The notes under the pieces: generated by a model
Seen by the model: only the letters and a program-made list of their open reading frames with translations
Databases searched by the model: none
What the model was told of the DNA's origin: nothing
Translations under genes and position numbers: made by a program
From: Sphagnum magellanicum
Taxonomy: Eukaryota > Streptophyta > Sphagnopsida > Sphagnales > Sphagnaceae
Length of the DNA stretch: 64,000 bases
NCBI GenBank assembly: GCA_021904315.1
Contig: CM038920.1
Location: 6,448,001 to 6,512,000 of the forward strand
Reading direction: 5' to 3'
In this document: in pieces, positions 1 to 43,429 of the stretch
Layout of the letters: each line of letters opens with the position of its first letter
Numbering within the stretch: position 1 is the first letter of the stretch

Positions 1-225
1 CACATTCTCATACTTAATTAGCAAGTTTGTGACTTGGTCTTTCTCCTTCTTGGCGAGCTGGTTCCCCATAACGAAAAGGTAGTTGGAAACACATGGAATG
101 GAGTTGGAAAGTGTGTTTGAAGAACTTGGTGTATTGGGTTCTCCACTATCCAATTGCGTAGATTCGTAGAAGGTTGTAATTGTTTCTCCAGAAGCTGATG
201 CACCTCCAGGTGTATTAGACACAAC
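1..225 (-). pseudogene. Linker and start of the reverse transcriptase region of the gypsy element
   Basis: After an in-frame TAA (226-228), the frame that carries the methyltransferase C-terminus continues open to the window edge. It encodes a Gly/Ser/Thr/Pro-rich linker and then NQLAKKEKDQVTNLLIKYEN, which resembles the short helical segment just upstream of the RT palm in Ty3/gypsy Pol (the LL.kY.dvF pattern). This is what places the methyltransferase upstream of RT in one polyprotein. The RT core itself lies outside the window, so the assignment rests on this short motif and its position. Confidence 0.6.
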
Positions 226-384
226 TTAAGTCAAATTACATGGTACCTCCTCCCCCCCAACACTGAGAGTGAAATGTAGAGTGTTGAAGATAGGCAAATG
301 TATTTGGTTGGGGTGCCATGTGGTTGCATCGCTAGAACTGCAAGTTAATTGAATCAGTGTTGGTGTTGTGTACATTTGAAAGAG

Positions 385-1740
385 TACACAAGTTACCAAC
401 AACCATGTAAGGGAGTTCAGGTCCATGCCTCTCCCTAGTAGAGCATTACGCTCCAATCTAGTCACCTTAGTGTGACTAGTAGTGCCAGCTTGGAACCCCA
501 TAGCCCTTTCTCTTTCTTCTGGGCTTGGTTCATCCCAAGTGGCTGAAGCATGACGATACACCAGGCCTGGCCCATCTCCTTGAAAGGCGTGTGTTCCTGG
601 GAAGGAGACAAAGGTGGGCCAAGCACCTCTTGGTTTTCCTATTATGTTCGCAGGAAACCAAGGAGGTTTTTCTTGCCTTGTAACTGGTTGGCAAGAACTT
701 TGATCATCCAATATGTGAGAAACCTGCAGGTTCGGGTCTCTGATAGTGTATTTCAGAGCTAGCTGCAAAACTAGAGTGGTGCCAAGTTGGTCCACCAATT
801 GCGCAGTCGGTGCGCATAGGAACCGCATTGTGCCGCATCAAGTAAGAGCGGCTCTCCAAGGTAATGCTTGACCAGTGTGTAGTGCTCCTGGACTTTCTCC
901 CTCTGATCAAGCTGAGAAGGAGTGTTCTTTATTACATAACCAAATGTAGGAGAAATGGATTAGACCCAGGTGATCAATCGTACCATGTCCATGAAAAGAC
1001 TAGATCTTGTGTCACTCAAGCCTTCTCTAAATCCAGCTGCTGAAAATCCTTGACACTCCCAACCTAAAATAATGAGGTCGACAAGGCCAAGTAATTCCAT
1101 ATGTTTCTTTTGAATTAGTTGTATGTTAGAGGGCAAAAATGTGAAACTAGCCTTCCATGTGGTGGTTGCGAATTGTTGTGGAAATCTTGTTGTGAACTCT
1201 CTCATTCTTGATGTCGTGACTTGCTTTGCAATAGGATCCATGTCTACATAAAAATACCTTCGAACCACCATCCCTGACTGTAGTAGGGCTTCGAGACCTG
1301 TACCAATACCACCAGAGAGCTCTAGTAATGTAATCCCTTCCTTAGGTGGTGTCCAGGTGATTAGCTGACGAAGTAATGGTTTAATTGGTTCGCCATGGCT
1401 CTCCATGCTCTTGAAACTAGACAAAGCTTTGACCAAAGGCTTGTGGGCTACTTTGAACCTTTGTAAAACCTCTGGTCCATGTTGAATGTCAATAAGAACC
1501 ACCCTCAAGCTTTCAATAGCTTGAGCGTAAGCTATCTCCTCCTCATTTCCCTCTATCCATTCGTGGCTAGCTTGTTGGATGTAGGAAATGGTGTGTGCTT
1601 CCTTGAACATACAATGGTGAGCCATAGGACTATGGTTCCCATGTAAATCAAGGGGTATGTATCCCAGGTGGTGGCCATCAATTTCCCAATCCACTCGGTA
1701 GTACGCACGTTCAAACCAGTTGTCAATTGTGAAACCTGGT
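385..1740 (-). pseudogene. C5-cytosine DNA methyltransferase domain embedded in gypsy gag-pol, between protease and RT
   Basis: Motif I is ELSGGIGTGLEALL (near 1290-1330), followed by the acidic YFYVDMDP strand. The catalytic motif IV is LIILGWECQGFSAAG, with the Cys codon at 1053-1055. After an in-frame TAA (960-962) the frame resumes with GYVIKNTPSQ (motif VI position) and CGSYAHRLRNWWTNL (motif VIII, with an RxR-like HRLR). After a frameshift near 770-820 come a target-recognition-like stretch, EPSPEERERAMGF (motif IX area) and ERNALLGRGMDLNSL (motif X, near 411-450). The order I-IV-VI-VIII-X is canonical, so this is not a DRM-type permuted enzyme. The family transfers methyl groups from S-adenosylmethionine to cytosine C5. 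About 110 residues of unknown role (YRVDWEIDGHHLGYIPLDLH and following) link it to the protease. This copy is broken by one stop, one frameshift and a further stop at 226-228. Confidence 0.85.
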
Positions 1741-2432
1741 GGAAACAGGGCCTCTTGCCCAATGAGCACATCATAACTTATGGCATTGGTGACTAAACAT
1801 CTGACCTATAAGCAAAGCTCCTGATCTGTACCTTCATTGAACTTAAGTGTAATCAAATCCGAACTTTCCCCAAGTACTTCCTCTACGCTCCCATTAATGG
1901 TGCGAATTTGCCACATAGATTTCCGTAGTTTGGAGTCAAGCATGCCCATCTTCTTGGCGAATTTAACTCCAAGAATCACTGGTTGGGCACCTGTGTCAAG
2001 AAGTACTACTCTGGGTGTATGTCCTCCCACTTGGATTGCTGACCCAGTATTGTCGACAATGGCAACTCCGGTGGCAATGGAAGTTCTCTCACTAGGCACC
2101 ACCTTTAGAAATGAGTGAGAGACTTTGTGGAGAGAATGGCTATCCACAACACCTTTGCTGAGTAACAAATCCACAAGTGAAGTGTTCTGAACTCCCTTCT
2201 GATATGTGAATGTAGAATTAGAATTAGCATGAGCTTGAAGCACCTCCCTATTGTCAGCATTGTGCTCCTTCTTCTTAACATTCTTGTTGGAATTACCCTT
2301 GGTAGGCAAAGCCTGAGTGGAAGGTTGAGGTGCCTTGGTTTTTGGTTGAGGGACAACGAAAGATGTTGGCAGATTTTGCCGTTGTAATCGGAGTTGCTTT
2401 CGCTCTGGAAACTTGGCAAAACAAACAGATTC
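1740..2432 (-). pseudogene. Retropepsin (aspartic protease) domain of the gypsy gag-pol
   Basis: This part continues the Gag frame. The active-site motif is VVLLDTGAQPVILG (about 2000-2050), where DTGA is the DTG/DSG triad of retroviral-type proteases. The second half ends with a YDVLIGQEAL segment, the usual closing motif of Ty3/gypsy proteases, just past a TAG at 1806-1808. The region between the knuckles and the protease is Lys/Asn/Ser-rich. In related elements the enzyme cleaves the polyprotein. Here the in-frame TAG probably inactivates it. The methyltransferase follows directly in the same frame. Confidence 0.82.
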
Positions 2433-3704
2433 CTAATGTCCCTCTTTCCCACAATAATCACAAAAGAGATCCTCGGAAGGGATGTTGCACTCACTAGCTT
2501 TGTGGGCAGGATTGCCACAGTAGTTACAAGAAGGTAGGATGAGTGTAGCCTAGTGCACCACTTTAGTCCTTGAAGAAGAATGTGATGATCTAGTTGGCGG
2601 AGCTGGTGTAGGTTGAGGCCTTGAACGTGATGGAGGCCTCATAGTACTAGCCTCATAGTGTGCATGAGCCAATTCCAACTTTTCGGAAATGTTGTACACA
2701 TCCAACAAAGTGTACGAGTTTCCAAATTTTGCAAAGACTCGTTGTAAAACTTGCGCGTGGAGCATTGGAATACCTTCCAACAAACGAAGATACCAGTGGG
2801 AAGCTTCCAAGTCGGTGATGCTCTAGGTATCCTCTTTGAGTTTGAGAAGCCTCCTGTAGAACATCTTGAGGGTTTCATCCTTTTGTCGAGAGAAGGTGGC
2901 AAGCTGTAGAATTTTTTCAGAACTTTTGACTGGAAATTCCAGCTCAAGAATTCGAAAGAATGCCCCCACTGGATCAGTAAAAGCTGGCACACCAGTTGTG
3001 GGAGGAATGTTTGTAGTAGCAGCAATGAGTTGTTGAGAAGAAAGGTTTACTAAGGTAGGTACCAGGTCTGGATTATTTGGCACAGTCCCGTGATGTGCAA
3101 TTGCAGCTTGCAATGCAGTTTGAAAGGCGGTGGCAATGGCTATGGCGTATGTTGGATTGGGAATCTGGGTGACACCCAAAATCCTCGCAAAATGTTGTTC
3201 GTAGACATCCAACGCCTCATAGTGCTCTTAACGAGCCAATTGTTTGAATGCAAACACCTCGGTGTAATTAGTGCCATACTTGAGTTCCAATTCACAAACC
3301 ACAATTGAAAAGGTTGCCTTGAACTCCCTCAAAGAAATAGTAACTGGCCTTCCACTGAAATTTTCAATTTTCCCAGATGAACTGCTCACCTCCATGGTGT
3401 ATATGGGTGCTGAAGTCATAGCTTGCAACGGAGTATATGGTGATGGTGCGAAAGTGGGTGCGGTAACAGGCATAGTCCATTGATGAGCCCCTCCAAATGG
3501 ACTCTAATGTACCCTTGATGTAGTGTAACCTAAGCCTGAATTCCTGGTAGGAGTTGTACTAGACAACGATGGTGCTGTAGACACTTGATGGTATCGTCGT
3601 GAAGCTCGTGAGCTTAAAAAACTCGGCTCAAAAGATTGTGTGTTACTTCGTAGCTAATACCTGGGCTCTGGCCGAATGGTAGTGCTCTCATCATCCGAGG
3701 ACAT
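2433..3704 (-). pseudogene. Gag region of the gypsy element with two CCHC zinc knuckles
   Basis: The frame starts at ATG 3704-3702 (MSSDDEST) and stays open except for TAG at 3654-3656, TAG at 3504-3506, TAA at 3228-3230, TAG at 2823-2825, TAG at 2550-2552 and TAG at 2433-2435. The middle part has the retrotransposon Gag pattern: a helical capsid-like segment with FSRQKDETLKMFYRRL, then SHWYLRLLEGIP, then a Pro/Ser/Arg-rich stretch. Two zinc knuckles follow, CNYCGNPAHKASEC and CDYCGKEGH.ESVC, both CX2CX4HX4C. The second is interrupted by the TAG at 2433-2435. Gag would form the particle and bind element RNA. The absence of frameshifts across 1.3 kb suggests the stops are point changes in a once-intact frame. 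Confidence 0.8.
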
Positions 3705-3949
3705 CGTGTTGTCCCATGCCCTAAAATGTTGTGATAGTACACAACATTAACTATAAAATTCTAACACAATGTATAATTTGAAGAATATAGTGCGTTGTTC
3801 TAAAGGCAGGACGACAAAAATAGCACGTAGGACATTAGGACGCAAGACGTAGGACATCAGGGCGCAGGATGGAGGATGTCAAGACGGCAGGACGAAAGTT
3901 CGTTGACAGAAGTCCGACAAACGAAAGTCCGACATTAGACGTGCAGAGC

Positions 3950-4420
3950 TTAGCCGCCGTTGCGGCGATGGCGGGCGGCAGCGTTGCACTGCAGTTCCTC
4001 ACAACGTAACGCTGCGACGATGGCCGGGCAACATGGAGCTATAGCGATGCAAGCTCACGCTGCTGCAGCTCGCGTCGCGACAGCGCTGCGGCGCTGTTGT
4101 AACACGCGTCGCGAGAGTGCTGCGACATTGTTTCTGCAACTTTCGTCGCAGCAGCGCTGCGATGTTATTACTGCAGCACCTATCGTGGGAGCGCAGCAAG
4201 CGTCGTAGCAACGCTGCTACAGCTCGCGTCGCTGTGGCATTGTTGCAGCAGGCGTTGCGGCAGCGCTACGGCACTGCTTCAACTCGCGTTGTTGCGATGC
4301 TACAGTAGGCGTCGTGGCAACGTTGCGGCGCTGTTGCAAGCTCGCAGCAACGACGGAGAGCAACACACTATGCAACGATGGCGAGTGGCAGTACTGCTCG
4401 CGGCAACGGCAGGCGGCCAT
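3950..4420. repeat. CpG-dense degenerate tandem repeats in the gypsy leader
   Basis: About 470 bp is packed with variants of CGCGTCGCGACAGCGCTG and GCAGCGCTGCGAT-like blocks, with a loose period of 30-40 bp. GC content and CpG density are far above the surrounding AT-rich DNA. It lies between the TATA box (4866) and the Gag ATG (3704), so it would be in the untranslated leader. Open frames seen here on both strands are Ala/Arg/Gln-rich by-products of the repeats. Confidence 0.7.
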
Positions 4421-4865
4421 AATTTTTGTTTTTTTTTACTTGATAGTTTCAAGAGAGCAAGAAAGAGGAAAGAGGCAGAGCTTTGAAACTTGTTTCCCCG
4501 CTCTGTTGGTTAGCATAACACAAGCTCCTTCTTGCAACGTCAACTCCTTTCAGCAGCAACAACAATAGCACCCTCCGGTAACCACAGCACGAGTAGCACC
4601 AGTAACACTAACAACACTAGCAGTAGCAACGATAACTTAAAAACACAATAACTTACAAGCAAAAGAAATCTGTGGCTTTCAACATGAAGCACAAAAAGTG
4701 CAGTTTTTCTAGAATTGAAATGCAAAGCAAGAAAGAAATGAAGTGTATGTAAACGGTGGCCATGCAATGGCTGTCGTGAACATCTAAAAATCCTAGCTTA
4801 TGATGGAGGAAAAACTCCTAACAAAGGAATTCTAGAAAAACTAAAAGGAGAAAGAAAGGGTTAGG

Positions 4866-4874
4866 CCTTTTATA
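4866..4874 (-). promoter_or_regulatory. TATA box of the gypsy 5' LTR
   Basis: The minus strand reads TATAAAAGG, a near-consensus plant TATA box, in GC-poor context upstream of the leader. Transcription would start near 4840 and run towards Gag, so the LTR U3 would lie right of this point. LTR ends were not identified. Confidence 0.55.
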
Positions 4875-4899
4875 TTGTGCCAACACTGAAACCCTAAGT

Positions 4900-6455
4900 A
4901 CCTAATAGTGTACAGTTGCCTAAAACCATACATCAACCCTAAAACCGCACATGGGCATGCCCGTAACTGGCCATCATGTATGAGGCCATGTATGTGCATG
5001 ACAATGGTTGCTTTGAAATGGTGGGTGTGCAAAAAGGTCAAAATGCAAGAAATCTAGTGGCAATGTTCAAATGGTGTATGAGTTCATGAATATGGGAAGT
5101 AGGTTTTATTGGATGTTCAAATTTCATGGAATTTTTTCTACTTGTAGTGCTTCATTTAATAACATCATGATGATAATCTATTTTAATCATCACATACATG
5201 CACCCTGAATGGACAAAGAAAGAGAAGTTGACAGTGGTCCAAAACATCCATTGGCAAGTGCAACATAATTAGAACAAGTTGCCACAAACATTGTTAGTCA
5301 CTAATACATGTTCATTTTGGGGTTCTTCCCAAAAAACATTGAGGAGGTTGGAAATTTGCATGGGTTAATAAAGGGGGTAGGGAAAATGAAAGAAACCCCA
5401 TAATGGGGATCACAAAGAATTTTTTCAGCCTTCCACACATTGGCAAAAGCAATTCCATGTTAAATTACATCCTATGGTTTCATGAGAGTGAGTTTTCTAA
5501 GACCACCAAGTTAATTTCTTATGAATCCTTTCAACAATTTTGAACTTCTAGTTTCTTGTGTGAATAGGGATGGAGTTTTTAAGAAAAAAACATCTATGCA
5601 AGAAAGGAGTTTATGTTCTTGGAGTACATTTTTTTTTAGGCCATAACATGGTACTATTTTGTATCTATAATATAGTATGGTTTACCATGGTACAAAATGG
5701 AATATTAGTTACACGAGTTGGAATAGCATTGATCGCCAAAACCATAATTATAACTTGATTGATTCAAAAAGACAAAAAGGCTTTGAAATTGATCTCAAGT
5801 AGCCATGACAAAATGTAGTAAAAAACAATTAATGTTATAAACCTATCACGAGACTAATGCAACATCTATTATCCGTTTAGTTATGTTTGAGTATGATCTC
5901 CCACCAATTTTGTTGGATAGTCATTGCTTCATTATTTGTTTTAGATTAATGAATTTTATGTCATTATAACATATTTTTTATTTTCTAATCAAACCCAAAA
6001 ATGATCATTGTTTTTTTAACCTATAACAATAATCATTTAATCACATAAATCACTAAGTAGTAACAAAAGGACATTAACATGCCATGGCATCATGAATTTT
6101 TTACTACAATGAATATGATAACTTGTTGATGTTTTGGGTAAAATATCTCATTATTCTTCAATTTGTGTTAATATATATTTGTGATGTGGAATTAATTAAT
6201 TGAAAATATCAATAACCTTTACAATTAATAACTAAATCTCCCATGATGATGACATAACATGTCATGTTATAATTTAAAGTGTTGCAACTATCAAACATCA
6301 TGATTCATGGGTGCAACAAAACATAATATATGTAACAATTAGATGAACAGTGCAACTCTAGGTCCTTAATAATCAAATAATAAACTAACACATGACACAT
6401 AAGAAAAGTTACAAAAACCAAAGATTTGTTATTGTGCCCAATATAATTACATGAT
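4900..6455. other. AT-rich spacer, nothing recognised
   Basis: Probably includes part of the gypsy LTR U3 at its left end. The rest is AT-rich with short chance open frames (for example 5570-5758) that have no recognisable motif or start context. Confidence 0.4.
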
Positions 6456-8544
6456 TTTTAAATTCACACCTTTTTTGGTTAAATTCACACCCTTTCTTCG
6501 TGCGTCTGATTATATGCAAATTAAATTTGAGTGTGTTTGCCCCACCCCCCTTAAAACAATACGCGTAACGCAATAGGAGATGGAGTTTGCGACACGGCAA
6601 GAGTTGATTGAAGATCTCAGCAACAATTATGAACAGGAAGGAGTGGTCTTCACCATCAAGACAAGCAAGGAGAAGCGAGTGGTCATGAAGTGTGACTGAG
6701 GCGAGGAGTACGTCAACATGCTGAACCTGACGAATGAAACCTGCCAAAGGGAGACGCACATGAGGCGAATTGGCTGTGAGTTTGAGATCATCTGCTCGTT
6801 GGTGAAGGGTGTCTGGACAATCCGTAAGATCTCAGGCAGCCACAACCACGAGCTTGGTGGCAACCTGGCAAGCCATGTGGTGAAACGCTGCTTAAGCGAA
6901 TTAAAAAAGGCTAAAGTGCGAACGTTCGGTGGGCAAGGTTTAGCGCCAAAGGACATTCTCTGCATCCTCCATAAGGAGTTTGCAAACATCCACTCAACAG
7001 CCAGGGAGATGTACAACGAGCTTGTTGCTGCTCGAGCGGAGGAGTTGAAAGGCCGCGGACCCATCGAAGCTCTGGTGGAGCTGATCTCTTGCTCTGATTA
7101 CTTCAACAAGGTGCGGCTGGTGGAAGGTGATGTTGACTGCATGTTTTTTATGCATCAGTCATTAGTCAGCATGTGCCAGATGTTCGGCATGGTCTTCCTT
7201 CTAGACTGCACGTATAAGACCAACAAGTTTGGCATGCCTCTGCTAAATGTGGTCGGCATCACGTCTACCTATGCGACGTTCAACGCTAGCTTTGCCTTCT
7301 TACACATAAAGAATGAGGAGGCGTACGCTTGGGTTCTGGAACAATTTTCCGAGGTCGTGACTCCAAAAGTCCTTTGCATGGACCGAGAATTGGCCCTAAT
7401 GAATAGGATTACACAAGTCTTCCCGGGCTGCCACAACATCTTCTAATGCTGGCACATCAACAAGAACATTCTTGCTAATTGCAAGACAGGCTTCTCCGAT
7501 GTTGAGTGGTAATAGTTTATGGAGCGATGGAATATCCTTGTCTGCAGCACGTTGGTCGAACTGTTTGATGTGGCTCTTAGTGTATTCAAGGAGACCTATT
7601 CGGGAACCCATCCAGCTGCTTAGCAATACGTTAACACGACGTGGATGCCTCACAAGGAGAGGTTTGTTGCTTGTTACATTGACGAGTTTCCCCACTTTGG
7701 TAGCATTAGTACTTCAAGGGTGGAAGGAAACCACGACGTTATCAAGTCGTATCTCTGTGTCAGCACTCTTCACCTCTTGACGCTAATGAAGCGGTTGGGT
7801 CTCATGTTGGCCAATCAACGCGTGGAACTGAATGTTGCGATTAAGAAGCAGAGGGTGCATAAGGCACATCGGTTCGGCCATAGCTACTTCAAGGACTTGA
7901 TCTACAAGGTTTCTAATTTCGTTATGGACAAGCTTCTACAACAACTTAAGCACGTTGAAAAGGGGGGACATGAAGAGCAACCATGCTCTACGCGATTCAC
8001 GAAATCGTGGGGGCTGCCCAGTCATCATTACATTTGCGGTTGTCTAGAAACCGAGACTCCGATTCTCCTACAAGACATTCATGAGCAGTGGCTGTTGGAC
8101 AGAAACCCCCTGATCCTTCCAAGTGTCAATGTAGCTGTGTCGCCACACAAACCGACATCACCACGAAGTTTATTCATGTAAACGATGATGGCTACCCTAC
8201 AACAAGTACTCGATAATGGGAATCCTCGAGCAGGCAGTTTGATTGCCCGCCTTAATTAGGTCCTGGATACGCCTAATGTTCAAGTTCAAGAGCCCTTGGC
8301 CGTGGTCAAGAAACGTGACAGACTTGTAAGCTCTAAGAACAAGACAAGCACGACTAGAGACAAGTCTCACTTTGAATACGTGGAAGGACGCAAATGTGGG
8401 GTCTATGGTTAATCAGGGCACAACTCGAGAACTTGCTCGCATAAGTAATTGAACTGATAAAGGAACATACTCTTAAAGTTTAATATGCATAAAATTGGAG
8501 GTGCGAAGGGTGTGAATTTAACCAAAAAAGGTGTGAATTTAAAA
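6456..8544 (+). mobile_element. MULE DNA transposon with short terminal inverted repeats
   Basis: The left end (6456-6495) and right end (8506-8544) are inverted copies over about 39 bp, beginning TTTTAAATTCACACC. A looser match continues inward to the ATATGC blocks. Each end contains AAATTCACACC twice, in direct orientation and about 20 bp apart. Inside is one degraded transposase gene on the plus strand. Element length is about 2.1 kb. I could not find a clean 9-bp target duplication next to the ends, so the outermost bases are uncertain by a few positions. Confidence 0.82.
6580..8450 (+). pseudogene. MULE transposase (MUDR/FAR1-like), disrupted
   Basis: The frame opens at ATG 6580, has a TGA at 6697-6699 (probably CGA, Arg, originally) and runs to TAA at 7444-7446. 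The N-terminal DNA-binding part ends in the IRKISGSHNHEL zinc-finger segment. The catalytic domain shows DCTYKTNKFGMPL (first Asp), MDRELALMNRI (second Asp), FLHIKNEEAYAWVL (Glu) and the CWHINKNI box right after the stop. A frame change follows, then 7645-8181 carries FVACYIDEFPHFGSISTSRV and the C-terminal helical part. Near 8394-8436 is a decayed zinc knuckle (KCGVYG.SGHNSRTC), where the second Cys has become Tyr. The enzyme would cut and paste the element by a DDE mechanism. With several stops and a frameshift it is not functional. Confidence 0.82.
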
Positions 8545-8660: not shown

Positions 8661-9481
8661 TGGGCTTCCCAAGTTCCTAGTTAGACCCAAGATGGGCTTA
8701 AGTTACTCAAATAATGGAATTATGAGGAACTCGGGGCATGCTCCTAACACTCAGCACTAGAAGGGATAGAGGGGCGTGCTAAAGCTCCAAGATGGGACTA
8801 TGAAGAGTGACAAGCTATTCACTTACTCGAACCTGCATCAAACCAACCAACCAACAAGTTGGTTAGTACACTTTCTAGAGGACCTTTAGTGCTAGGACAA
8901 GCCATGGGCAACTCTGGACTCACAAGACTCACCACGGCCTAGACTCGAGGGAAGCCACCACCTTCCCCCATATAGTATTCTTTGCGTCTCTCCATGGCAC
9001 CTACATTCGAATGGCTTTTTATCTCGAGATTCCGAAAGAGGAGTCCCAAAACTGTCCCAATTTGGACTCTCGGGACTTTGTGAGGTCATAACTCTTTGCT
9101 CAGACCTCCAATTAGGATGAGGTTTAAAGCAAACTTGTAGCTCTCCTCAAGAGCTTTTTAACGGTGTGTTACACTCCACCTACACGCACCGAGGTCAGGT
9201 CGATTCCCGACTTTTAGTGGTTAGGAGTCAAACTGTTAGTTTGATTCCTAGCCCTTCTTTTTGCCATAACCTGTGTTGCAAATGTCCAAATGGCCCATGT
9301 GAGCTCATTTTCAACATTTACACTTTGATAGTTTTCCAATGATATAAATAACACCCCAATGCGAGGTGTTTTGACCCCTGCAATCAAACTTTGAAGTTTT
9401 GGGAGTCCCGGAGGACTCCCAAGTCCCCATTTCGGGAATGTGAGTTTCATCCTCACACTCTTTCAAAGTAGGGTTGCGACA
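8661..9481 (-). mobile_element. Solo LTR copy C
   Basis: On the minus strand this begins TGTCGCAACCCTA and is homologous along its length to copies A, B and D. It shares the TATA-like ACTATATGGGGGAAG block and the hairpin at 8947-8969 (one mismatch in the stem). The other end is diverged and placed at TG 8661. The flanks TTCAAAATCTA (8650-8660) and TTCAAAATGTA (9482-9492) match at 10 of 11 bases. This is longer than the 5-bp duplications of copies A and B and may be partly chance in AT-rich DNA. No internal retrotransposon sequence is attached. Confidence 0.6.
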
Positions 9482-9492
9482 TTCAAAATGTA

Positions 9493-12410: not shown

Positions 12411-13484
12411 TTAAAAAAAGGGGGCTGATCCTCCCACCCTGCCGATTTGCTTCTCCCACCCTCCCCCCCCCTATCTCGTCTCCTCCCTTTAATTCTCACC
12501 ACCTTCATCTCCGCCTTTCTAATTCCCCCCCATTAATGGCCTAAGTATTGGGCAATTACGAACGTCGTGTCCAGGCCTCCTACATTCCTTGCAAAGACAT
12601 GGGGCTTTGTTAATTGTCTCAAAGGCGCTTGGTTTCCGACACGTTGATGATATTGGCTGGTGGCTTGTGGCACGCGCGACGACAACAGCAACGAATGGGC
12701 GTCCGCGTACATGGGCAACGACAGGCTCGAGAATTTGTATTGCAGGTGTACCAACTTGTAGATCTAGTGCAAGCCACCACTGCTTGTGTACCGCATTGAT
12801 TGGTAGGCTCTGGTTTGTAGCACGCAGATCGTAGATTGTGGTCGTTGAAAGAAGTCCCATGACAGTCTCAAAGTGGGGGTCTAGTTGCGGACGGACTTTG
12901 CGCCTTGCATGCTCTTTGGCAATCATAAATTGAAGGTGGATCTTGATGAGAGCAACTGAAGAGACCTGTCGGACCACTTGTGAGGAGACGCAGGTATACA
13001 GTAAATATAGGGAAATAATACAGGAGGTCAAGGGAGGAGTCCAACGAAATTGGACTCAGAAAAGGAACTTCTCCACCTGACCTCTCTGACCCCCAACCTA
13101 GTCCATAACATAAGATTTGATCAAATGGAAGTAGGAAGCTCTACGCACCTGGTCATAGAACATGTCTGACTGAACATGATTGCACCGCTCCTTCTGTTGT
13201 GAGATGGTAATATCAATCTCTTGATACTGATCGGCGAGAAATTGCAGTACACGTTCGACCACAGTCATCATGTCACCAGTGCTAACCTACAGGCGCTGCT
13301 TCAACGCTGAGTGTGCGCCTTCCACACGTGATGAGGATGACGACTTGAAATGCGGCACTTTGTCAACATATGCGCCAACAAAGTATGTCTTGTACTCCAC
13401 CTAGGAAAGCACATACTGCACAACACGCGGCTGGGTACCCACCCACTCCATTTGAATCTGCACCAACTTCTCCTATAGCTCGTC

Positions 13485-14453
13485 TGTCGCAACCCTAGCT
13501 TTGGGCTCGCGACCAAGGCAAAGGGGGTTGCAATGTTATGGGCCAAAAGAGAGGAAGCTCGGGAGTCAAGGCAAAGGCATTGCAAGGGTGTGGGCCAAGA
13601 GGAAGCCAGGAAGTCACATCACATACTCCCGGGAGTGTTAGAAAGTGTGAGGGAGTGTGAGGGAGTGAACACTCACACTCCCAAGGCAACTCCCACTTTG
13701 GGAGATAGAATCCCGGTGGACTCCCAAAACTTCAGAGAGCGATTGCAGGGGTCAACCTCAATGTCTTGTGACGTTCTTTATATCATTGAAAAGCTCTTGA
13801 AGCGTAGATTTCTAAAATGAGCTCGCATTGCTCATTTGGACATCTGAAACACAAGTTATGGCCAAAGGAAGGGTCGGGAGTCGAATTGCCAGTTTGACTC
13901 CTGACCACAAAAAGTCCGGAATTGACCCGATTTACTTAGATGCAGGGGGCGTGTCACATATCTTTGGAAAGCTCTTGACGAGAGCTACAACTTTGCTTTA
14001 GACCGCATCGCGATCCGAGGTCTGCTCGCAAAATTATGGGGCTCCAAAGTCGCGGGAGTCCCATTTGGCGCGATTTCGGGACTCCCACTCCGGAGTCCCG
14101 GGAAAAATTTGGATGTAGGTTCCGTGGAGAGCTGTAGAGTATACTATAAGGGGGAAGGTGGTGGCTTCCCCCAAGTCCGGGCCGTGGTGAGTCTTGTGTG
14201 TCCGTGTTGCCCGTGGCTCGTCCTAGCACCAAGGGTGCTCCAACTATGCACTAACCACTTTGTGTGGGTTGTGTGCAGGCCCGTGTGAGTGAGTGAAGCT
14301 TGTCAACTCTTCCTAGTCCCATCCTGGAGCTCCAACACGCCCCTCTACCCCTCAAAATGTTGTGAGCTAGGGAACGTGCTCCAACTCCTCCTTCTTCGTT
14401 GTTTTCCTACTTGGGCTCACATTTGAGCCTTTTGAGGAGTTGGGAGTGCGTCA
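13485..14453 (+). mobile_element. Solo LTR copy A, nested in the MULE, target duplication TCGTC
   Basis: The element starts TGTCGCAACCC and ends GGGAGTGCGTCA, so it has TG...CA termini. TCGTC precedes it (13480-13484) and follows it (14454-14458), a perfect 5-bp target duplication. It contains a TATA-like CTATAAG (14144-14150), the conserved hairpin at 14150-14172 and many GGGAGTC/GACTCCC motifs. There is no PBS, polypurine tract or coding sequence, so it is a solo LTR left by recombination between two LTRs. Its length is 969 bp. Confidence 0.92.
14144..14172 (+). promoter_or_regulatory. TATA-like box plus hairpin conserved in the LTR family
   Basis: CTATAAG is followed directly by GGGGGAAG, a 7-base loop GTGGTGG and CTTCCCCC. 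The same block is present at 41971-41998, at 42890-42920 (minus) and, with one stem mismatch, at 8947-8975 (minus). It would sit at the start of the transcript and could be an RNA hairpin. Confidence 0.5.
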
Positions 14454-15621
14454 TCGTCCTCCGTGCCCGCTCGCATCACCCCTAAGAACAATGTCATGAA
14501 CGTCTGCCAGTCCTCCTCAGTGAAGCCTGTCCGGTGCTTCGCCATCACGTTCTTACAGATATGCCATCGGCAGAGCATCTCGTGGGCGACGGGAAAAGCA
14601 ATCTCGGTCGCTCGCATCAGTGCCAACTTGCGATCGATGACAATGGCGAGCGGCAGGTAGTTGCCCATAAAGCCTTTGTAGGTGTTTAATGCCCACTCAT
14701 AGTCCTTAATTGTCTCTGCACTAAGAAACGCAATGGCCGATGTGAAGGTCGCCCTAGTGTAAGCAAAGCTAATAATGTGAAGTAGGGGCATTTTGAACCT
14801 GTTCGTTTTGTAGGTGCAGTCCATGGTCAGGACCGTTCCAAAGCGACGAGCAAGTTGTATAGCCTTGGTGCTTGTGAAGGTGAGTCGTGTTAGGCGCCCG
14901 CTAGCATCAACAAAATGGGTGTTGGGTACATCCAGTTTGATCAAGGACGAGAGCAAAGCCTCCATTGGCGTCCGGCCATCAAGTTGTTCAATTCTGTGCC
15001 GCCTCTTCAAGTTGTATATGTCGCGCGCGATGACATCCTCGCCCAAAGGTTCCGAACGTATCAATGTCAGGATCTGAGCAGGCGCAACACCAGTGGCGGA
15101 CAAAGTGCGAACGCGTTCTTTTACGTCGTTGGTCATCTTGCGGTGAGACGGATGTGCAGCCTCATGAATCAGCGGTGGGTGGTTATGCTCTTCGCATTTC
15201 ACACGCAACGTCCAGCTCCCGATTCAATTACGACGGCCTTGCAGAAGAAAGGGGCAACCGGTCAGGACCGAGTTCGAAGGGCGCTGGCGTGTTTGCTCTG
15301 TTAGGCCATGGCGATCATCGCGTGTACCAGACTTGTCGCAGTGCAGCAATAGGACGCCCATCTTGTAATCGGACCGCTTGGTGGTGACGTTATAGAGATG
15401 AGCGACGGCATGCTGTCTGCACGCAGCCTTCAAGGCATCAACATCGTCGTAAGTGGCCTTGGGAGGGGGGTTCATGGCGTGGCGGTACAAGGAATGGGGG
15501 GGAATCAGAAAGGCGGAGACGGAGGTGGTGAGAATTAAAGGGAGGAGACGAGATAAGGGGGGGGGGGGGAGGGTGGGAGAAGCAAATCGGCAAGGTGGGA
15601 AGATCAGCCCCCTTCAAAAAA

Positions 15622-29342: not shown

Positions 29343-30784
29343 TTATGCATAGGCCTCTGGGTTGGCTTTCAATTCAGCACCAATCACTTTGCACACTTGG
29401 ATATACATCTGCTTGTGGCTTTGGGGAGGGCCTGCGTTACCAGCTGCAATGTATGTGACTGTCCAAACTGCATAGGTGCTGCCCTCAACAGCTCCAGGGC
29501 CAACCACTTTGATGGTCTTGAGATAAGGATAGCGGGGATCGCCTTTCAACAACGATACACCCATAGTCTTGGTTGCATCGTCAGAGAAGTCCAACCGCTC
29601 CCACACTTCTCCACCCATTGGGACAGCTGCACAGAGTCATATCATACATAAGGAAAACAACTGTGAAAATTGCATGTTCACCTACGAGGACCAACCATTT
29701 CTATGAATATAATGTAAATCATATATTTAATTATCAAGAATTCCAGGAAAAAACTAAATGGGTAGTGCAAGAAGCAATAGTATTTGGTTCGTTTATTTCT
29801 TAAGAAAATTCTGAGCAAAATATTTTGTTTTGAAAAACACATGGACATGGAATTTAGGTTTTATGAAAAAGGTATGTGAATCAAAGGCAATTTTCCATAC
29901 CAGGGCCAAACTTGACGATGCGGATGCCACCAGGTTTACCATAGTATTGTCCTGAGATGTTTGTCGCAGATTCAAAGACATCAGGCAAGTACTTGGGCAC
30001 GATGTTGTCCAAGTTGTGGACAGCCTTCCATACAGCATCCGGGGATGCATCAATAGTTTCGGTGTGGGTCAAAGTCTGTCTTGACTTAACTGCCTTCTCC
30101 AAAGTCTTTAACACCTTAACGACTCCCTCCTTCATGTGTTCAGGAGCGGGTGCATCTCCAACTGGTTCATATGTGCACGTCCAGGTTACCTCAGTGGAAG
30201 ATTTTCCACTGGCGACACACTTTATCACACTGGTAACATTGTTATAGCGAGGATCACCTCCGATAATTGTGAACCCGCTAGATTTGCTCTCCTCATCAAA
30301 AAAGTCCAAACGCTCTTTCCATTCACCAGCATGTGGGACAGCTATACAAGAGTCCAACCAAACATTCAAAACAAATGAATAACTGATTGTACATCCAGTG
30401 GGGAATCCTCAAAATCCAGTGGAAAACCTCCAAAGCATGTTACAATCCAAAAAGAATTCTACCAAAACAAAAAACAAAATGACTCTAGGAAGATCTTGTA
30501 TTTGGGTCGAGAGTCAAGAGTGGGTTGGAGTTAAGGGTTTAGTAACACCAAATTACACAATTCGAAACCAGAGGGTACTTAGGTATGTAGATTGTAATAC
30601 CGGGGCCTGGTTTGACGAGGCGAATGCTGCCTGGCTCGCCAGGAAACCCTTCAACGAAGGAGCTCTTGGTGAAGTACTCAGGCTCCAAGGCAGGGAGGAT
30701 TTCATCCAATTGTTTGCTAACCTCCCAAATGTCATCAGCTGAGACCTCGAGTACCACAGTGTGAGAAAGAGTGTGCTGAACCAT
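29343..30784 (-). CDS. Protein with two tandem Bet v 1 (PR-10/MLP-like) domains, three exons
   Basis: The exons are 30784-30601, 30341-29901 and 29626-29343 (909 bp, 302 residues). Both introns start GT and end AG. Both split a codon in phase 1 as G|CT at the same place in each domain (after KPGP and after KFGP), the usual PR-10 intron position. Domain 1 (about 1-148) begins MVQHTLSHTVVLEVSADDIW. Domain 2 (about 149-302) begins RQTLTHTETIDASPDAVWKA. Each has the gly-rich loop area (GFPGEPGSIRLV and YYGKPGGIRIVKF) and the ERLDFxD strand. Bet v 1 proteins are cytosolic and bind hydrophobic ligands such as hormones or flavonoids; a few are enzymes (norcoclaurine synthase type). The ligand here is unknown. 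The frames are intact, and codon use looks like a real gene. Confidence 0.88.
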
Positions 30785-34264: not shown

Positions 34265-37200
34265 ATGTTTAAGAAGACCCTCACTATGGTTTCCCTCAAT
34301 GTCAGAGGCATGAGGGTCAAAAAGACCAAACCAAAACAAGTGAAGGCTTGGCTTTCATCGCTCCCAACCCCACCGCAACTCATTCTTCTCCAAGAGCACC
34401 ACCTCGGGAAAGTGGAAGCTCAAGACCTCGCTAGAGGGGTTGAGTTCTAGCAGGGAGAATCTTACTAGAATGAGGGTGTCCCAATGGGACGCTCCCAGAG
34501 AATCAGCGCCGGCATGGCGATACTCGTGGACAAAACGATCTCACCACTCATCACTGATCATGGCATACTAGTCGAGGGTCGCGCCCAATTTATCATGTTA
34601 CAACCTCCCGGGGAGGGATCGTTAACTATAATTAACATCTACGCATCTCTCCACTCCACCGACCGAGCCCAGCTATGGCAAAAGGTGAGCCAAGCAAACT
34701 TTAATGCTGACCATGTCATCCTCGGAGGGGACTTCAACCACCAAGAGGTCTTGGAATGCAGAGGCACCGCCGGACTAAAACAGATGAACAGGAGGGAGTC
34801 TTCCTCTTGGCATCTCATGATGCTCAAATATGGGTTGTCCGACACCTGGCGCCTAGACAGCCTTCGAAAGCTTTCCAAGAAAGAGTTCACCTTCGATAAC
34901 GGACGCCCGGGGGCATCCTCAGCAATGTCCAGGATCGATAAATTCTTGGTCTCCCAATCCGTGGAGGAGAGGGGAGGACGAATCGAAACAGCAGCCTTAG
35001 TAAAAAAACTTTCGGACCACTCCCCTCTTGTCATCTCGGTCTGGGGGAAACAACAGGAAGCGCCCGGGAATCGCATTTGCTTCTTCGACATCTCTTTCTT
35101 GAGCGAAAAAAGCAGGAGAAAAAAGTTGTGGGAAGCATGGGTCGGGAATCACCCCCCCCCCACCGCCCCCTCTCAAGACTTCGACTGGCCGGCCTAGCTG
35201 GAATCCGCCACCGACCGGGTAATGTCGTGCAACGCGCGCCTCTCAAAGACAAAAAGGTGAAATCAGGGTGCCTGCGTCAGAGCAAGCACCAAAAAGATTC
35301 AACTGGCTGAAGTCTAGCTTCAAAGGGACCCAGCGAACGTTGAGGTGTGGGGCATCCTTTCAGACGCACAAGGCAAGCTCACAGATGTCTTTCAAAATTC
35401 AGTGGAGCAAAACCAACATCTTTCCGCTTCCAGATGGCTAAGATACGGGGATACTTGCTCCAAGGCCTTCTTCGATTTTCACAACATAGGAAAAAAAAGG
35501 ACCCTCCTACGCGAGCTAGAAACCGAGGAGGGCATAGTCTCAGGTCAAAGCGACCTCGCCTTGTATGTCACAAGCTTTTATGCCAACCTATATTCCTCGG
35601 ACGCGCTGGCTCAAGGCATAGCGGAAACGCAAACGGTCTGTTGGAAGAGCGTCCCGGCCAAGGTCACGCAAGCTATGAACGAGAGGCTGACTAGAGACCT
35701 CTCCTTCAAGGATGTCACGGACGCCATCAAAGCCCTCCCCAAAGGGAAGGCTCCAGGGCACAACGGGGTGCCCATGGAATTCTTCCAAGAATTCAAAAAA
35801 GAGGTAGCGCCGATGCTGCTCCATGCCTTCTCGGCGATGTTCAGAGTCAGCGCGACCTCAGCCCACATCAACAAAGGTCTGATTACTCTCATCCCCAAAT
35901 CAGGGGACCGAGCCAGACTGAATAACTAGAGGCCCATTACCCTTTTGGGCAGCTTATATAAGGTTCTCGCAAAGACTCTCGCTCGCAGGATTCAAACGGA
36001 CCTCACGGAGATCATCAGGCCCAACCAAACGGGCTTCGTGGAGGGCCGGAGCATACTTGACAACGTGTTCATGGCTCAAGAAAGCCTAGGTTGGGCTGAA
36101 GAAAGCAACCAAGACCTGGTCCTTCTCCTTTTGGACTTCGAAAAAGCATTCAATAGAATCGAATGGGACTTTCTTTTCAAAGCCCTGGACAAACTGGGCT
36201 TTAGCCCCACCTGGGTCCATTGGGTTGCATCCCTATATTGGGATGCCACCTCCGCCATCAAAGTGAATGGGGTAGCCGGCCCTAATTTCCAACTCGCCAG
36301 GTCGGTAAGGCAAGGGTGCCCCTTAGCACCCTACTTATTCATTATAGTTACTGATGTTCTGGGGTACATGCTAGACGACCCCAAACATGGGGTCGAAGGC
36401 CTTTCCCTTCCCAAAGGTGGTCGGATCAGAACCAGACCTTCGCTGATGACATAGCCCTCTACCTGAAGGGCACCCCGGCCAACATGGACCGGGCACAAGA
36501 AGTCCTCAAGACCTTTTGCCGCGCGTCTAGAGCCATAGTCAACTAATGCAAATCGGCTGCCATCTGGGCCAACCAAAAAGAAAAGTCTTGGGAATGGGGG
36601 GAAGACGAAGGGTTAAAGTGGATCCCAAAAGGGAAAGGTACAAGGTACCTCGGGATTCAGGTCGGTTTCCATTTACCATCCGAGGCAAACTTTGACACGA
36701 TGATGCTCGCCTTCAAAGGCAAGCTCATCAATTGGAGCAGTAACAAGCTTTCGCTTGCAGGAAGAATCTCGGTGGCGAACCAGGTCTTACTCGCGTCTAT
36801 CTGGTACCTGGCCACATGTTGGAATCTAGATCCAAAAATGTGCAGCCAAGTCAGAGGGCTCATTAAGAACTTTATATGGGGGCACAAGGAGGCGCCTACA
36901 CGCGCCAAGGTAAGGTGGGACACCGTGGCGCTCCCAACCTCCCAAGGAGGCTTGGGCGTCACCGACCCCAAAGCCCAATCGGAGGCATTGTTGGCCAAAC
37001 TCTTCATAAGGGGCCTAGTGCCTGGCGGAGAGCCTTGAAAAGAGCTCGTGCGGCACAATGCCAACCAGACGAGGCTCCCAGTCCACGGCAAAGGCCCCTC
37101 AAACCCCGACCTAAATTGGCTCCTCGCCGCGCCCAAGCTCAAGAGGCTTAAATGCTCTATGTGGAAGAGCATCGTTGGAGCTTGGCTGAACGTGAGGCCC

Positions 37201-41040: not shown

Positions 41041-41289
41041 ATGTGGTCTTGAAGTCTTGACTTTGCAATTGTCGGACTGGTAATTGTTTTGGGATGTTTG
41101 TGTTGTGAAGAAAAACATGAAACTGGAGGGTGAGATCACTACATTTGGCTAAGAAAAAAGACAAAACCATGCCTCTATTTTTTCTTCTTCTTGGAAATTG
41201 TATTGTTTTCTTGTTGGGTGTAAAATAAAGGTGAAGTATATGATGTCCATCACTTGCTTTCAACTTTGCTTTGCTTTGTTGGGCCCTGC

Positions 41290-42279
41290 TGTCGCAACCC
41301 TAGCTTTGGGCTCGTGACCAAGGCTAAGGGGGTTGCAAGGTTGTGAGCCAAGAGGAAGGAAGCCCGGGAGTCAAAGCAAAGGCATTGCAAGAGTGCGGGC
41401 CAAGAGGAAGCCCGGGAGTTAAGGCAAAAGGAAGCCCAGGAGTCACATCACATACTCCCGGGAGTGTTAGAAAGTGTGAGGGAATGAGCCCTCACACTCT
41501 CAAGGCAACTCCCACTTTGGGAGATGGAGTCCCGGTGGACGCCCGAAACTTCAAAGAGCGATTGCAGGGGTCAAACCTCAATGGTTTGTGGCGTTATTTA
41601 TAACATTGGAAAGCTCTTGGAGCTTAGATGTCTAAAATGGGCTCGCATTGCTCATTTGAACATCTGAAACACAAGTTATGGCCAAAAGAAGGGCCGGGAG
41701 TCGAATTGCTAGTTTGACTCCTGACCACAAAAAGTCCGGAATCGACCTCTTCCTGATGTCCGATTCGGGAGTACAACACGGCGTTGGAAAGCTCTTGACG
41801 AGAGCTACAACTTTGCTTTAGACCGCATCGCAATCGGAGGTTTGCTCGCAATGTTATGGGGCTCCAAAGTCCCGGGAGTCCCATTTGGCGCGATTTCGGG
41901 ACTCCCACTTGGGAGTCCCGGGAAAAATAGCCATTTGGATGTGGGCTCCGTGGAGAGTCACAGAGTATACTATAAGGGGGAAGGTGGTGGCTTCCCCCAA
42001 GTCCGGGCCGTGGTGAGTCTTGTGTGTCTGTGTTGCCCGTGGCTTGTCCTAGCACCAAGGGTGCTCTAACTTTGCACTAACCACTTTGTGTGGGTTGTGT
42101 GCAGGCCCGTGTGAGTGACTAAAGCTTGTCAACTCTTCCTACTCCCATCCCGAAGCTCCAACACGCCCCTCTACCCCTCAAAGTATTGTCAGCTAGGGAG
42201 CATGCTTCGACTCCTCCTTTTCCGCTGCTTTCTACTTGGGCTCACATTTGAGCCCCTTTAAGGAGTTAGGAGTGCGTCA
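41290..42279 (+). mobile_element. Solo LTR copy B, target duplication CCTGC
   Basis: It starts TGTCGCAACCC and ends GGAGTGCGTCA. CCTGC precedes (41285-41289) and follows (42280-42284), a perfect 5-bp duplication. It is closely related to copy A along its 990 bp, including the TATA-like TATAAGGGGG and the hairpin at 41976-41998. No internal region remains. Confidence 0.92.
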
Positions 42280-42602: not shown

Positions 42603-43425
42603 TGACGCACTCCCAAGTCACGGGGTGAAACCCACTTGAGGGTTTCACAAAGTCAAGTTGCGAAAAGTTGAGACTTGGTAGCATGCTCCCGACTTCCAAC
42701 TCTAAAAAGGGGTAGAGGGTTGAGTTAGGAGCCCAAGGATTAGACTAGGAAGAGGGACTAGCTTAGCTCGTGTGAATCTGCATCCAAAAAAACCAACCAA
42801 ATCGAGTTAGTTTAGTATTCGGGACACCCTTGGGTGTTGGGACTTGCCACGGGCACTTGGACACACAAGACTCACCACGGCCCGAACTCGGGGGAAGCCA
42901 CCACCTTCCCCCATATAGTATTCTCTGCGGCTGGTCGTGGAGGCTACATCCGAATGGCACATTTTGTTGGGACTCCCAAAATGGAGTCCCGAAACTGTCC
43001 CGGCTAGACTCCCGGAACTTTGAACGGCCATAGCTCCTCGCCCCGAACTCGGATCGGGTCGAGTCCTAAACCAAAGTCGTAGTTCTCGTCGAAAGATTTC
43101 CAACGCCGTGTCGCACTCCCCAAGGCGACGTCGGGAAAAGGTCGATTCCCGACTTTTAGTGGTCGGGAGTCAAACTGCTAGTTTGACTCTCGACCCTTCT
43201 TTTGCCCATAACTTGGGCTGTAGATGTCCGAATGGCCTATGCGAGGCCATTTTCGATATTTGCGTTTCAAGACCTTTCCAATGACACCAAGAACACCCCA
43301 ATGCAAGGTGTTTTGGGCCTTGCTGTCGAGCTCTAAACATTCGGGAGTCCCGGAGGACTCCAAACCTCCAACTTTTCCAAGTGTTGGGCTTCACCCCCAC
43401 ACTTGGCCAAAGTGGGGTTGCAACA
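42603..43425 (-). mobile_element. Solo LTR copy D
   Basis: On the minus strand it starts TGTTGCAACCCCA and ends GGGAGTGCGTCA, with TG...CA ends. The hairpin at 42890-42912 is perfect and adjoins ATACTATATGGGGG. The flanking pentamers are TTTGT (42598-42602) and TTCAT (43426-43430). They differ by two transitions, so the duplication is at best decayed. At 823 bp it is shorter than copies A and B and more diverged. Confidence 0.8.
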
Positions 43426-43429
43426 TTCA

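Follow-up and report, generated by a model that had tools for sequence, protein, structure and literature searches.

A DNMT3-type methyltransferase between protease and reverse transcriptase in a Ty3/gypsy retrotransposon family of mosses and liverworts

The stretch analysed here (the window) comprises 64,000 nucleotides of the moss Sphagnum magellanicum (GenBank assembly GCA_021904315.1, contig CM038920.1, positions 6,448,001 to 6,512,000) and contains a truncated and decayed member of a multi-copy Ty3/gypsy retrotransposon family, in which a DNMT3-type cytosine-C5 methyltransferase (MTase) sits between the protease and the reverse transcriptase (RT). Elements of this MTase-bearing kind occur in mosses and liverworts, and we consider it nearly certain that this is a Ty3/gypsy family with a DNMT3 domain throughout. 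The original prediction, made from the letters of the window, had placed a C5 MTase in the gag-pol frame of a Ty3/gypsy element; translation, Pfam and a motif scan confirmed Gag, two zinc knuckles, the protease, the MTase and the linker ahead of RT (pre-RT linker).

Three-frame translation of positions 1-5000 revealed that the minus strand from 3704 to 1 is the 5' part of the element, its left end cut by the window edge (Table 1). Gag starts at about 3395, possibly at 3704. The open reading frame (ORF) at 1806-2309 matched the gag-asp protease family PF13975 with 27 bits, slightly below the curated cut-off of 28.2, and the ORF at 960-1769 matched PF00145 (E 3.5e-9). The motif scan found the catalytic Cys codon exactly where it had been predicted. 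While the window holds the CCHC Gag and the retropepsin of a Ty3/gypsy element, the Ty3-type RT and RNase H follow downstream in the protein P0122, which is 94% identical over the shared 257 residues and whose best PDB match is the Ty3 RT, and an integrase follows RNase H in the locus L081. Position 1 of the window aligns to residue 424 of P0122, in which RVT_1 starts at residue 502; the RT and integrase of the window copy lie beyond the left window edge. The spacer behind the protease is conserved, since P0125 of Calypogeia (56%) and P0142 of Marchantia (32%) align unbroken by tblastn from the protease through the spacer to the MTase. The only type of primer-binding site tried, that of tRNA-Met with up to two mismatches, was found neither in the window, with its cut left end, nor in L081. 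Upstream of Gag, an imperfect GC-rich repeat (4057-4134 and 4211-4280, 70.5% alike) is possibly a leader or long terminal repeat (LTR).

Table 1. Features of the element in the window; the names given to the MTase motifs are those we presume to apply.
Feature	Position	Strand	Basis and remarks
Decayed, left-truncated Ty3/gypsy element, Gag to pre-RT linker	1..3704	-	frame reading and tblastn of relatives; possible upstream LTR or leader, limits not set
Gag	2421..3395	-	P0123 residues 1-390 match 3395-2226 at 75% (tblastn)
Two CCHC zinc knuckles	2487-2528 and 2421-2462	-	knuckle pattern; stop inside the second
Internal-deletion junction	2207..2226	-	tblastn of P0123: residues 1-390, then 664-1141; residues 391-663 without counterpart
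Retropepsin-like protease	1866..2036	-	PF13975 at residues 92-148 of ORF 1806-2309, E 7e-6; LDTGAQ at 1983-2000
DNMT3-type C5 MTase domain	364..1334	-	PF00145, P0122 mapping, motif scan; broken by stop at 962 and frameshift near 772
MTase motifs	I 1305-1325; IV 1050-1061 (WECQ, Cys codon 1053-1055); VI 915-929 (KNTPS); VIII 801-824; X 415-435	-	motif scan
Pre-RT linker, ends ahead of RT	1..363	-	stop at 228; P0122 residues 168-424 match 771-1 at 94% (tblastn)

A search with the MTase ORF yielded 377 homologous proteins. Among the matches listed (best 120 of 377), the best identity was 98%, and two carried an organism name, Calypogeia fissa (63%) and Sphagnum troendelagicum (83%, with 61% of the query covered). 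Longer proteins, searched separately, yielded ten matches, including P0122, with MTase, RT and RNase H within one ORF; P0123, open across 1214 residues, with Gag, CCHC knuckles, protease and MTase as far as before motif X; and the Calypogeia protein P0125, with protease and MTase. In favour of function, the MTase stands within long open frames or gene models, 1214 to 1451 residues in length (P0123, P0126, P0127, P0142). A profile search, limited to scoring the 7995 candidates with the most words in common, gave 104 proteins. Seven of these are from Marchantia polymorpha (P0142, P0153, P0157, P0161, P0163, P0166, P0182), and the other named matches are from Calypogeia (P0147), Riccia (P0206), Sphagnum troendelagicum (P0167), S. 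fallax (P0222) and S. jensenii (P0227). Thus, as far as matches are named, the plant carriers are all bryophytes: Sphagnum, Calypogeia, Marchantia and Riccia. One protein, P0134, is filed under a bacterial metagenome-assembled genome (MAG; Obscuribacterales), which we take as probable eukaryotic contamination. Calypogeia and Sphagnum each hold two branches, the window type (P0125 and P0078 of Calypogeia, with Glu-Cys in the catalytic motif, and P0108 of Sphagnum, assigned by identity alone as it ends ahead of motif IV) and a Marchantia-like Pro-Cys type (Calypogeia P0147, Sphagnum P0167). Taken by themselves, the matches would point to a moss, most likely Sphagnum, as the host. Viral contigs searched with profile A1 gave 126 confirmed stretches, the best 80 of 126 at best-segment identities of 22-51%, and genome contigs gave 37 loci, among which only L081 covers nearly the whole domain, at 40%; P0063 found no confirmed stretch in the viral contigs and P0121 no loci in the genome contigs. 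The 377 homologues, P0122 and the bryophyte relatives show that the family regularly carries an MTase between protease and RT, in support of the original prediction.

The MTase is of DNMT3 type, being closest to DNMT3 by both sequence and fold. Its motifs run in the unrearranged order I-IV-VI-VIII-X, which is not that of DRM; a DRM or bacterial-type MTase was judged less likely from the motif order and the ranking. None of the 60 sequences of the ranking list is a DNMT1, CMT or DNMT5 chain, although a distant kinship with these may exist. Of two structure models, the first was weak (predicted local distance difference test, pLDDT, 56.7) and was kept out of the fold searches, and the second was good (83.6). 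DUF3444 was absent from the element proteins scanned.

The MTase occupies two positions in these elements. It follows the protease in the window-type, Marchantia and L081 elements, and it stands ahead of the integrase zinc domain in P0128, P0129, P0130, P0144 and P0162, with RNase H preceding it in P0128 and P0144. Pfam did not detect it in P0128, where homology and the A1 profile revealed it. The start of P0198, of which Pfam shows the MTase only, we interpret as the end of RNase H. We built a first tree of 67 rows, made up of 65 of the 67 MTase-spanning proteins (P0222 and P0023 left out), the window piece and DNMT3A, and a second tree without P0198 and DNMT3A; neither holds a plant host DNMT3. 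Eight rows of the pre-integrase type (RNase H, MTase, integrase) were split off by one branch, with support of 96/64 in the first tree and 100/100 in the second, and eight window-type rows by a separate branch, with 100/100 in both. P0154, P0173 and P0178 were placed in the pre-integrase group by the tree alone, Pfam scans giving the MTase only or nothing. Pairwise identities among P0122-P0157, P0122-P0128 and P0157-P0128 were 48%, 40% and 34% for RT, and 36%, 35% and 33% for the MTase. The two positions fall in separate tree groups, which may reflect two captures of the domain or one that moved.

The WECQ context of the catalytic Cys, which had been flagged as unusual, proved to be real and common to the family, as judged from the window-type rows and the tree. 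In place of the catalytic Pro-Cys of the DNMT3 family, which most relatives retain, the window and its branch have Glu-Cys. With 10 of the 67 rows unscorable and DNMT3A set to Pro by hand, Glu-Cys was counted in 13 of 57 scorable tree rows, namely all seven scorable window-type rows (window included) and six of the eight pre-integrase rows. The exchange of Pro for Glu requires at least three changes on the MTase tree. To our knowledge, Glu for Pro in this motif is rare elsewhere. In favour of function, none of the ten A1 rows departs from the others in the Cys, the EN pair or motif VIII, and the window-type consensus agrees with all seven distant elements in 51 of 324 columns.

The locus L081 (9285 bp) is a complete relative that has the same 127 bases at both ends, as would be expected of a circular assembly, and it suggests how the enzyme might be expressed. 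Its first ORF contains a CCHC knuckle, the protease and the MTase and closes with a single TAG, after which the same frame runs on through RT, RNase H, integrase and a PHD finger; P0122 spans its MTase and RT in one match. At 3489-3497, the TAG is followed by CAA TCA, which fits CAR YYA, the context in which UAG is read through in tobacco mosaic virus and SIRE1. A hexamer fits CAR YYA by chance about once in 512. The stop directly after the MTase is thus a possible read-through site; as in SIRE1 of soybean and the tobamoviruses, the putative signal separates two in-frame coding parts, here the MTase and RT. P0133, P0136 and P0138 share their final ten residues, GGMNALSATK, with the MTase ORF of L081, and P0142 (Marchantia) and P0147 (Calypogeia), both on megabase contigs, end 74 and 76 residues past the MTase. 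Against a general stop, P0122, of the window type, continues without a break into RT. The same holds for P0157, P0166, P0206 and P0222, which are gene models; the annotator may have spliced some of these across a stop. L081 (1-9285) is filed in a cyanobacterial MAG (Synechococcales), again taken as probable eukaryotic contamination. A PHD finger follows the integrase in P0144, P0130 and L081 (3504-6635), and P0144 also has a PTM/DIR17-like Tudor domain. In chromoviruses, which are also Ty3/gypsy elements, the integrase end bears a chromatin-reading domain; in L081, P0130 and P0144 a PHD finger stands at that end, plus the MTase.

The copy in the window is heavily decayed. Frame -3 covers 3704-774 with eight stops, six of them from 3395 down, and frame -2 covers 771-1 with one, which makes seven stops from 3395 down. 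The predicted single frame from 3704 to about 800, broken by single stops, held as frame -3 as far as 774, but the prediction had missed three lesions: a shift of the reading frame near 772 (tblastn mapping), the loss of some 270 codons that P0123 has between Gag and protease, and a Lys instead of Glu in motif VI (KNTPS, as against ENTPS in P0122 and P0123). Five of the seven stops (2825, 2435, 1808, 962 and 228) stand at a Gln of a relative (P0122, P0123 or P0124), the pattern that C-to-T change would give. The CpG observed/expected ratio was 0.35 in 1-3400, against values of 0.75 and 0.76 for two further stretches of transposon DNA; it is only suggestive, because the 40-64 kb part has an equally low 0.34.

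As a whole, these results are best explained, by a slight balance of probability, by a family MTase that would act on the element's own cDNA. The enzyme would be produced within the polyprotein; in the Pro-Cys relatives it would belong to the Gag-side product, and RT would be made by read-through of the leaky stop. It would then enter the particle and methylate the double-stranded cDNA around integration, and new copies would thereby bear a host-like mark on arrival; the host would keep old copies methylated, and these would decay by C-to-T change. Such self-methylation, suggested by the proposal of de Mendoza et al. and by the place of the MTase in the particle polyprotein, is the most likely role, at roughly even chances. 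More tentatively, and with the balance somewhat against it, we suggest that one element lineage has carried a DNMT3 MTase as a core part in mosses, liverworts and further relatives, with two positions in pol, a Pro-Cys branch making the enzyme at Gag-like abundance via a leaky stop right after it, and the branch of the window working with a Glu-Cys motif. Several observations weigh against the explanation by self-methylation. The window copy is dead and cannot work, being too broken to have made the active enzyme once envisaged. Its low CpG is not peculiar to the element. The Klebsormidium gypsy enzyme was inactive in yeast, a result that its authors called inconclusive (PMC5890265). Finally, in 109 rows and columns with at least 15 rows, the 22 invariant columns were not better kept within window-type copies than the 126 others (0.882 and 0.869, p 0.21), and because they were kept no better, no selection is visible within these copies.

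Alternatively, the enzyme might act chiefly on the chromatin of the host, either in trans or at insertion sites and in their vicinity, limiting harm or steering silencing; we regard this as unlikely, though it is the strongest of the rivals. PHD fingers read histone tails, and the one after the integrase in L081, P0130 and P0144 could bring the complex to chromatin. Effects at insertion sites were also discussed by de Mendoza et al. (2018, PMC5890265). However, no PHD finger was seen in the branch of the window, whose integrase was not recovered, and the MTase shares the particle polyprotein with protease and RT. Less likely still, the domain could have lost or changed its catalysis along with Pro-Cys and serve the particle by nucleic-acid binding or RNA modification. 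The recurrence of Glu across the tree would fit, as would its retention in 54 of 59 window-type rows, but the catalytic Cys is kept in 57 of the same 59 and in all ten A1 rows, and the fold is near that of DNMT3, which acts on DNA. It is very improbable that the domain protects the host cell from DNA viruses, as Morozov et al. speculated for transposon-borne methylases (PMC6338049); their argument predicts loss in land plants, yet bryophytes keep the domain, and nothing supports it directly. The insertion of one fragment of a host gene into a single copy, named beforehand as a finding that would overturn the prediction, is ruled out by the 377 homologues and by the same domain order in moss and liverwort elements, and nothing was found in its favour.

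Elsewhere in the window, two MULE (Mutator-like element) transposase pieces (PF10551) lie at 6718-7446 on the plus strand, with a weak FAR1 match, and at 14417-15208 on the minus strand. LINE-like remains occupy 34484-36454 (plus), with an endonuclease at 34484-35197 and RVT_1 at 35945-36454, and a Bet v 1/polyketide cyclase-like ORF at 29881-30369 (minus) is possibly a piece of a host gene. Dispersed repeats pair 13484-14453 with 41289-42279 (86% alike) and 8736-9485 with 42681-43429 (73% alike). Rfam and tRNA scans of the window gave no matches.

Retrotransposon-borne MTases were known, as the original prediction stated, from a charophyte and from dinoflagellates: de Mendoza et al. (2018, PMC5890265) described Dnmt3 in Gypsy elements of Klebsormidium, with Ka/Ks under 0.2, and in DIRS elements of Symbiodinium, whose enzymes methylate CG in yeast. 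Compared by description, KnitGypsy-Dnmt3 of Klebsormidium nitens resembles the present family in its unrearranged Dnmt3 domain within an LTR Gypsy polyprotein, its multiple copies and its streptophyte host; it differs in that this host is a charophyte alga, and the available portions of PMC5890265 do not mention Glu-Cys, a second MTase position or a leaky stop. No protein named for Klebsormidium was among the matches listed in our homologue searches. SymbioDIRS-Dnmt3 and SymbioLINE-Dnmt likewise bear a cytosine methyltransferase, but they are DIRS and LINE elements, not Ty3/gypsy, of dinoflagellate hosts (PMC5890265). The host DNMT3 of non-flowering plants (Yaari et al. 2019, PMC6453930) shares the DNMT3-type catalytic domain and differs in its C-terminal DUF3444. 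An opinion paper states that such elements are absent from land plants (PMC6338049), a 2025 paper names streptophytes and dinoflagellates as hosts (PMC12344493), and the accessible text of PMC11244446, PMC6453930, PMC10952607 and PMC8566409 mentions no land-plant case. We found no open-access paper that describes an MTase-bearing Ty3/gypsy element in land plants, in line with the prediction; subscription literature was outside our scope. Relative to the papers found, the presence in land plants, the two MTase positions in separate tree groups, the Glu-Cys motif and the L081 stop context appear to be new, although Marchantia annotations already contain genes of MTase-bearing elements.

The presence of these elements in bryophytes contradicts the published statement on their absence from land plants, and element-borne copies may inflate DNMT3 gene counts in bryophyte annotations. 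It also poses a paradox, since hosts silence such elements by cytosine methylation and yet the element keeps a de novo methyltransferase. Because the carriers include the laboratory plant Marchantia, this question is opened to genetics and methylome work. If the MTase is indeed a core part of the lineage, these elements would have carried a capacity for de novo methylation through early land plants.
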